39,937 bases of DNA from assembly GCA_013359215.1 (NCBI GenBank), contig JABWCH010000016.1, positions 1-39,937 on the forward strand, given 5' to 3'. The translations under genes and the position numbers were made by a program. Shown here in pieces: positions 30,495-32,245 of this stretch (the stretch's first letter is position 1; each line of letters opens with the position of its first letter). The notes beneath the pieces were generated by a model that saw only the letters and a program-made list of their open reading frames with translations, was not told where the DNA came from and did no database searches. Origin of the DNA: Candidatus Brocadiia bacterium. GTDB lineage: Bacteria > Planctomycetota > Uabimicrobiia > Uabimicrobiales > JABWCH01.

Positions 30495-30570
30495 CTCTAT
30501 AACTCTATGGTCAAGTTTTTTTCTATGGAATCGGAATTAAATAAGTTCCCCATTTAGACGATAAAGATAA

Positions 30571-30649
30571 CGATTAAGATTAAGATTAAGATTAAGATTA
30601 AGATTAAGAATCGTAGTCCGATTCGTTATCATTATCTTAATCTTAATCG
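30571..30649. repeat. GATTAA hexanucleotide microsatellite with inverted complement
   Basis: Six exact copies of GATTAA run from 30572 to 30607. Downstream, ATCTTAATCTTAATCG (30634-30649) is the perfect reverse complement of 30571-30586. A short inner stem GAATCG/CGATTC (30608-30613, 30619-30624) sits between. The result is a long, slippable hairpin that can pair in several registers, followed by five Ts at 30653-30657, so it may also act as a terminator. Confidence 0.9.
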
Positions 30650-30785
30650 AAATTTTTGTGATTTCCCTTTAATTTAAGGATACACAGAAGTAAAATTTAC
30701 ATAACAAGCTGTCTTGTATTCAATTAAAAATGGGGAAGTTATTTGCATTTGATTTCAAATGCTATAAGGAAGGACTTGGATTACC

Positions 30786-31271
30786 ATGAAAGTTATCATT
30801 CTTGGAAACGCTGGAGCGGGTAAAAGCACCCTGTCCAGAAAACTGATCGCCAAGCATCCTGCCGCTCGGTTGTCGCTTGATGAGGTTGCGTTTCACGGTG
30901 GTATGGAAAGACGGCCACTTCAAGACAGTATTGAAGATGTGGAACGCTGGATCGCTGATAACGAGAACTGGATCATCGAGGGCTGTTATGCCGACATTAT
31001 TGAGCCTGTGTTAAAGCACTGCGATGAACTCATCTTTCTCAACCCTAGTGTACATACATGCATTGCACACTGCCTCTCAAGACCTTGGGAGCAGGAAAAG
31101 TTCGGATCCCGACAAGAGCAAGACGAAAATCTAGAAAATCTGCTCCAATGGGTTCGCGCCTACGAGAGTCGTACTGACGAATATGGGCTTTTAAGGCATC
31201 GGGAACTCTACGAATCGTTTAAAGGCAAGAAGCGTGAATTTAATGATCCTGGGGAATATGAAGCGTTATAA
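30786..31271 (+). CDS. P-loop nucleotide kinase-like protein (adenylate kinase/FlaR-like)
   Basis: 161 residues from ATG 30786, with GGAAGGA eleven bases upstream. A Walker A motif GNAGAGKST occupies residues 7-15, followed by LSLDEVAFHGG and then WIIEGCYAD (62-70), which fit the small family of kinase-like P-loop proteins variously annotated as topology modulation protein FlaR, adenylate kinase or shikimate kinase. The lid region RPWEQEKFGSRQEQ carries several charged residues. Substrate unknown. The base composition appears more GC-rich than the neighbours, with CGG, GCG and CGC codons, and the gene abuts a transposase remnant, so transfer is possible. Confidence 0.85.
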   Translation: MKVIILGNAGAGKSTLSRKLIAKHPAARLSLDEVAFHGGMERRPLQDSIEDVERWIADNENWIIEGCYADIIEPVLKHCDELIFLNPSVHTCIAHCLSRPWEQEKFGSRQEQDENLENLLQWVRAYESRTDEYGLLRHRELYESFKGKKREFNDPGEYEAL

Positions 31272-31295
31272 CAACTGGTTGCAGCGGACTGTTCA

Positions 31296-31513
31296 CTAGA
31301 AATCACGATTTTAAGAAATGGGCATTATGACTACGACCGAGAATCTGTATATAAGTTTTTAAACAAAGATGTGCAGAGAAAAATAGTTATTTATGAGTTA
31401 TTTATGCAAGAGTTTCGACGACTAAACAGAAGAAAGACCTTGAAAATCAAATAGAATTATTAAAAAATTATGCTTTTATAAATGGTTTACAAGTTGGAGC
31501 AATATATAGCGAT
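31296..31513 (+). pseudogene. Broken remnant of an IS607-family serine recombinase (TnpA)
   Basis: Two frames together encode the central part of an IS607-type transposase. From 31311 one frame reads RNGHYDYDRESVYKFL and ends in RKIVIY; from 31403 another reads YARVSTTKQKKDLENQIELL and continues to GAIYSD. In intact family members these join as VVIYARVS, where the Ser is the catalytic nucleophile. Here an 11-base tandem duplication at 31385-31406 shifts the frame exactly at the junction. The N-terminal helix-turn-helix and everything after IYSD are missing, and the right end stops at the start codon of the hydrolase. No tnpB is present. Confidence 0.85.
31385..31406 (+). repeat. 11-base tandem duplication that breaks the transposase
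   Basis: AGTTATTTATG occurs at 31385-31395 and immediately again at 31396-31406. Removing one copy restores the reading frame VIYARVS across the join. This identifies the inactivating mutation. Confidence 0.93.
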
Positions 31514-32245
31514 ATGATAATAAGAAAATATATACCACTGAGCACAGCACCTGCTTTGATTTTGTACAAGGATCATATGGACAAGGCTATCCAAAAAGGC
31601 GCAATTTTATTTTATCATGGATTGGGGGCAAGCAAAGAAGGGCAGGAAAAAGAAATTGTAAGCCTTGCAGAGCATGGTTTTCTTACCATTGCCATAGACA
31701 ATGTTGGTCATGGAGAAAGGAAATACCATGATTTTGAAGAAAAGTTTTCCCTGAAAAACCCACGGCTAGAAGCTGACTTTATCCAGATGGTTCATGAAAC
31801 AGCAAAGGAAACTCCAAGGGTTGTTGATGCCTCTATAGCACAAGGATTTGCCCATCCAGGCAATATAGGAGTTTGTGGGATTTCTATGGGCGGATACATT
31901 GTATACTCCGCCCTTCTCCAGGAGAAAAGGTTCAAGGCTGCTGTTTCCATTCTTGGCTCACCTAACTGGAAAATACAGCATCCACAAAGTCCACACCATT
32001 TCCCAGAATCCTTTTTTCCCACAGCCTTTTTAGCTATGAATGCAGAAAAAGATAGAAGCGTTCCTCCGCATTTTGCCAGAGAATTCCATAAACGCCTCGA
32101 ACCATTCTATGCTTCTGCTCCAGAAAGCCTTTGCTATAAAGAATATCCAGGAGCAGACCATTTTATGCCAGAAAAAGATTGGAACGATTTGTGGTCAAGA
32201 ACCCTCTCTTGGTTTGACCGATATTTAGGAAGATCTATCGGCTAG
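31514..32245 (+). CDS. Alpha/beta hydrolase (dienelactone hydrolase/esterase-like)
   Basis: 243 residues. The nucleophile elbow GISMGG places Ser124; the oxyanion region is HGLG at 35-38; the acid is probably D180 in NAEKDRSVPP and the base H216 in GADHF, giving a complete triad for a serine hydrolase of about the usual single-domain length. No signal peptide, so cytoplasmic. The substrate cannot be told. The ATG at 31514 has only a weak GGAG 14 bases upstream, and that GGAG lies within the transposase remnant. The same open frame continues upstream into the remnant without any ATG, GTG or TTG. Its original upstream region has probably been lost. Confidence 0.88.
   Translation: MIIRKYIPLSTAPALILYKDHMDKAIQKGAILFYHGLGASKEGQEKEIVSLAEHGFLTIAIDNVGHGERKYHDFEEKFSLKNPRLEADFIQMVHETAKETPRVVDASIAQGFAHPGNIGVCGISMGGYIVYSALLQEKRFKAAVSILGSPNWKIQHPQSPHHFPESFFPTAFLAMNAEKDRSVPPHFAREFHKRLEPFYASAPESLCYKEYPGADHFMPEKDWNDLWSRTLSWFDRYLGRSIG

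Follow-up and report, generated by a model that had tools for sequence, protein, structure and literature searches.

The window analyzed here (the whole stretch of 39,937 nucleotides) is contig C57 of a fragmented metagenome assembly from a Planctomycetota lineage, the genome comprising 6.39 Mb in 576 contigs with an estimated completeness of ~85%. A single 9,721-codon open reading frame at 361-29526 encodes a giant protein whose first part carries RTX-like, glycine-rich GGxGxD repeats. Farther along, ~170 bp lie between the arms of an imperfect 16-bp inverted repeat (30541-30743; AATAAGTTCCCCATTT and AAATGGGGAAGTTATT, 15 of 16 positions matching), and this interior contains a run of (GATTAA)n together with a partial complement of it; this stretch, just upstream of a kinase gene, looks like a small MITE-like inverted-repeat element. 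Two intact genes follow on the forward strand: the P-loop kinase-like gene of the "DNA topology modulation" type (30786-31271; NF005576, E = 2.4e-17) and an alpha/beta hydrolase gene (31514-32245) with a GISMGGY nucleophile elbow and matches to several Pfam alpha/beta hydrolase families. The gap between them holds a 224-base piece of an IS607 transposase gene, truncated on both sides and broken in its frame, which begins ~18 bp after the TAA of the kinase gene and fills the rest of the gap. Homologues of the kinase, 68 to 70% identical, occur in two distant Planctomycetota families and match its C terminus within a few residues; a chimeric C terminus was ruled out, since the homologues end at the same place. 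No kinase relatives were found in viral contigs.

The transposase remnant (~31290-31513, forward strand) represents the middle of an IS607-family TnpA read in two frames, its breakpoints being set by protein similarity alone and the left one being accurate to a few codons. A profile hidden Markov model derived from 33 TnpA proteins, all from other genomes, was scanned against all six reading frames of the window, and the only significant matches were the two parts of the remnant (next best E, 0.58). Part 1, in frame +3 (31290-31393; profile positions 24-59, E = 4.9e-11), takes in the last portion of the winged-helix DNA-binding domain plus the linker into the catalytic domain, while part 2, in frame +2 (31397-31513; profile positions 56-95, E = 3e-16), corresponds to the beginning of the serine recombinase catalytic domain and includes the YARVS motif. 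The parts are ordered as in IS607 TnpA, but the N-terminal domain is represented by its tail alone (from profile position 24), and ~72 of the 200 profile positions are kept. Moreover, the 40-residue second part was matched by Pfam Resolvase (PF00239; E = 7.6e-8, above the cutoff) and by the NCBIfam IS607 transposase family (NF033518; E = 4.8e-12), the latter with a score below the curated cutoff because the remnant is truncated, as expected of a fragment. On these matches, the predicted product is of the IS607 serine recombinase type. The first-pass annotation had pointed to hallmark peptides of IS607 TnpA in two frames; both were located in the translation of 31201-31640 (NGHYDYDRESVYKFLNKDVQRKIVIY, frame +3; VIYARVSTTKQKKDLENQIELLKNYAFINGLQVGAIYSD, frame +2), and the comparison of the translated segments with IS607 recombinases that it had proposed gave matches to NF033518, PF00239, and the relatives' profile alike. 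The limits that it had assigned, 31296-31516, were right in place and not in extent, as similarity reaches slightly farther to the left and stops before the hydrolase ATG. An Rfam search returned no structured RNA around the remnant.

The two frames adjoin at an exact tandem duplication of 11 bp (AGTTATTTATG in two copies, 22 bases, 31385-31406, forward strand), which shifts the frame and leaves the codons for VIY present twice, and the four-position overlap between the two profile matches (24-59 and 56-95) is what this small duplication predicts. Thus, the earlier proposal that an 11-base tandem copy explains the frameshift held. Four nontrivial exact tandem copies with a unit of at least 9 were counted in the window, by start position, versus 0.5 expected under a first-order Markov model; the 11-bp copy is therefore mildly unusual for the window, and it is its position inside a reading frame that gives it meaning. 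The accompanying claim that the duplication inactivated the gene was not sustained, as the helix-turn-helix part at the N terminus and the C-terminal half are both missing, and either loss would be fatal. In uninterrupted relatives, which are ~200 residues long, a helix-turn-helix segment such as MKAKEVLNLLRITRQTLTKYVKEG comes first, and the remnant is without the first ~23 and the last ~105 TnpA codons. It ends at GAIYSD, where relatives continue with IASGISFEKR, and its next codon is the hydrolase ATG; similarity stops at profile position 95 of 200, and the rest of the catalytic domain, including the downstream arginines and helix E, is gone. No tnpB lies beside the remnant, as the hydrolase gene follows directly, whereas uninterrupted relatives have a second open reading frame. 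IS607 elements end at a GG target, and both ends of this element are deleted. Considering that truncation alone would be fatal, inactivation cannot be put down to the duplication, which also need not have preceded the truncation. Even without the duplication, the fragment would be dead, and it makes no recombinase.

At its right end, the remnant abuts the hydrolase ATG and forms the 5' leader of that gene. The second TnpA frame runs open through the hydrolase, as noted in the first reading, and constitutes an open frame of 282 amino acids that extends back to a TGA at 31391. A TnpA-hydrolase fusion protein was rejected, since no ATG, GTG, or TTG precedes 31514 and the hydrolase orthologues (n = 3; same family and order, 238 to 240 amino acids, 52 to 54% identical) start at the same position. 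The hydrolase gene is intact and starts at its own ATG (31514), with only its 5' leader being transposase derived. For annotation, the hydrolase start should be placed at 31514, and the upstream open frame does not warrant annotation as a fusion protein.

Related loci (54 in total) were found in diverse bacteria and archaea, and they have the N-terminal parts absent from the remnant. The closest relative found was a TnpA at G003:C188 (JAGVGO010000106.1; L008/L046) from Planctomycetota bacterium DeMMO2_28, a genome of the same family, with 79% protein identity; part 1 of the remnant is 64% identical to the L008 TnpA over residues 29 to 59. The G003:C188 contig begins inside tnpA, which is uninterrupted, and a second long open reading frame begins 4 bp before the tnpA stop, that is, at the tnpB position. 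Over 73 shared codons in two separate pieces, the remnant and this relative differ with a ps of 0.79 and a pn of 0.18, the synonymous sites being saturated and the amino acid sites conserved. Given this low pn/ps, almost all of the divergence occurred under protein-level selection, and the decay is recent relative to the divergence from the G003 relative, the protein having been under selection until recently. The intact copies that had been suggested for inspection elsewhere in the genome turned up in part: no second copy of the remnant DNA was found in the assembly (85% complete, 576 contigs), and an uninterrupted IS607 element of another subfamily is present (C219; tnpA of 191 amino acids and tnpB of 489 amino acids). 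A further IS607 tnpA fragment in the same genome, likewise decayed and with a stop codon, belongs to a different subfamily (G000:C554:8630-8791; L029/L130). Together, the C219 element and the C554 fragment indicate that IS607 insertion and decay are usual in this genome. The empty site that had likewise been suggested was not found in relatives, nor was a full one, and the neighbor genes are not syntenic there: the UbiB-type neighbor was found in five relatives, where its flanks differ and hold no other genes of the window, and no homologue of the 260-amino-acid neighbor was found in those five.

Taken together, the fragment is very probably a dead piece of an IS607-family insertion sequence that decayed between the kinase and hydrolase genes. 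An IS607 element carrying tnpA and, after it, tnpB would once have stood between the present genes, and illegitimate recombination may have removed its left end together with the first ~23 tnpA codons. On the right, a breakpoint at the ATG of the hydrolase would have taken away the terminal ~105 codons along with tnpB and the end of the element. Replication slippage produces tandem duplications like the 11-bp one, which would have shifted the remaining frame, and the fragment would now be at most a passive 5' leader of the hydrolase. This scenario accounts for all of the observations. The identity and limits of the fragment, the duplication, the intact state of both neighbors, and the existence of an uninterrupted relative are established, whereas we infer slippage and the order of events, as well as deletion rather than another joining route, the last because no second copy and no empty site were found. 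The first-pass annotation had a deletion placing the middle of the element at the ATG; the fusion of the middle to the ATG was confirmed, while a single deletion was not, as no undeleted or empty site was found in relatives. The remnant, which the first reading described well, is ordinary mobile-element debris of a known IS family. It is another decayed IS607 copy, still legible owing to its recency, from a Planctomycetota lineage that has been poorly sampled and that also carries an uninterrupted IS607.

The exact abutment on the ATG, the A+T-rich composition (28% GC), and a GGAG located 13 nucleotides before the hydrolase ATG would also suit a fragment kept as regulatory DNA, providing the hydrolase with its promoter and a leader for ribosome binding. 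This is unlikely, considering that promoter-like matches in 31200-31620 show no excess (2 versus 1.7 in shuffles), that the GGAG-ATG spacing is long, that read-through from the codirectional upstream kinase gene is possible, and that whatever sequence joins an ATG becomes a leader by default. It is still less probable that selection favored a deletion reaching exactly to the ATG because the hydrolase thereby gained a new transposase-derived leader and promoter, an IS fragment becoming a regulatory region. An error of metagenome assembly, affecting the junction or the 11-bp copy, would be conceivable in a fragmented assembly of 576 contigs with no second isolate available; however, the locus lies inside a 39.9-kb contig with coherent neighbors, and the remnant DNA is single copy in the assembly, whereas assembly chimeras usually arise at repeated DNA, and we consider such an error very improbable.

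An integron was also considered, in which a gene cassette with a broken attC would comprise the kinase gene plus the beginning of the intergenic region, with the IS607 fragment inside it. At the kinase stop, TAACAACTGGTTGCAGCGGAC (31269-31289) matches the half-site pattern exactly and resembles an attC left half, the distribution of the kinase gene is patchy, and an integron-type integrase over its family cutoff is encoded in the same genome (454 bits, C572). However, the right half-site is absent and no hairpin was obtained (fold z, +0.6), the half-site pattern shows no enrichment across the genome (at ≤1 mismatch, 6 matches versus 26 for the reversed control), and the kinase homologues L132 and L133 have no such site downstream. 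With a half-site only, an integron attC at the kinase stop was rejected, and the cassette reading is very unlikely. The integrase itself (G000:C572:171-1064; L129) scores well over the NCBIfam cutoff of 265 bits, with no evident cassette array beside it on its 8.9-kb contig.

IS607 TnpA is a serine transposase with an N-terminal DNA-binding domain (PMC6188088, PMC4058570), and the insertion of IS607 elements, for which tnpA alone is needed, leaves no target duplications and involves no terminal inverted repeats (PMC6188088). Like IS607-family TnpA, the remnant has the order GxYDYD..VYKFLNK in the linker region and then YARVS.KQK.DLENQ at the catalytic start, but it differs in holding only ~72 of the 200 positions, in its broken frame, and in being without element ends and tnpB. 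The element at G003:C188, in contrast, has both an uninterrupted tnpA frame and tnpB, and the remnant has neither.
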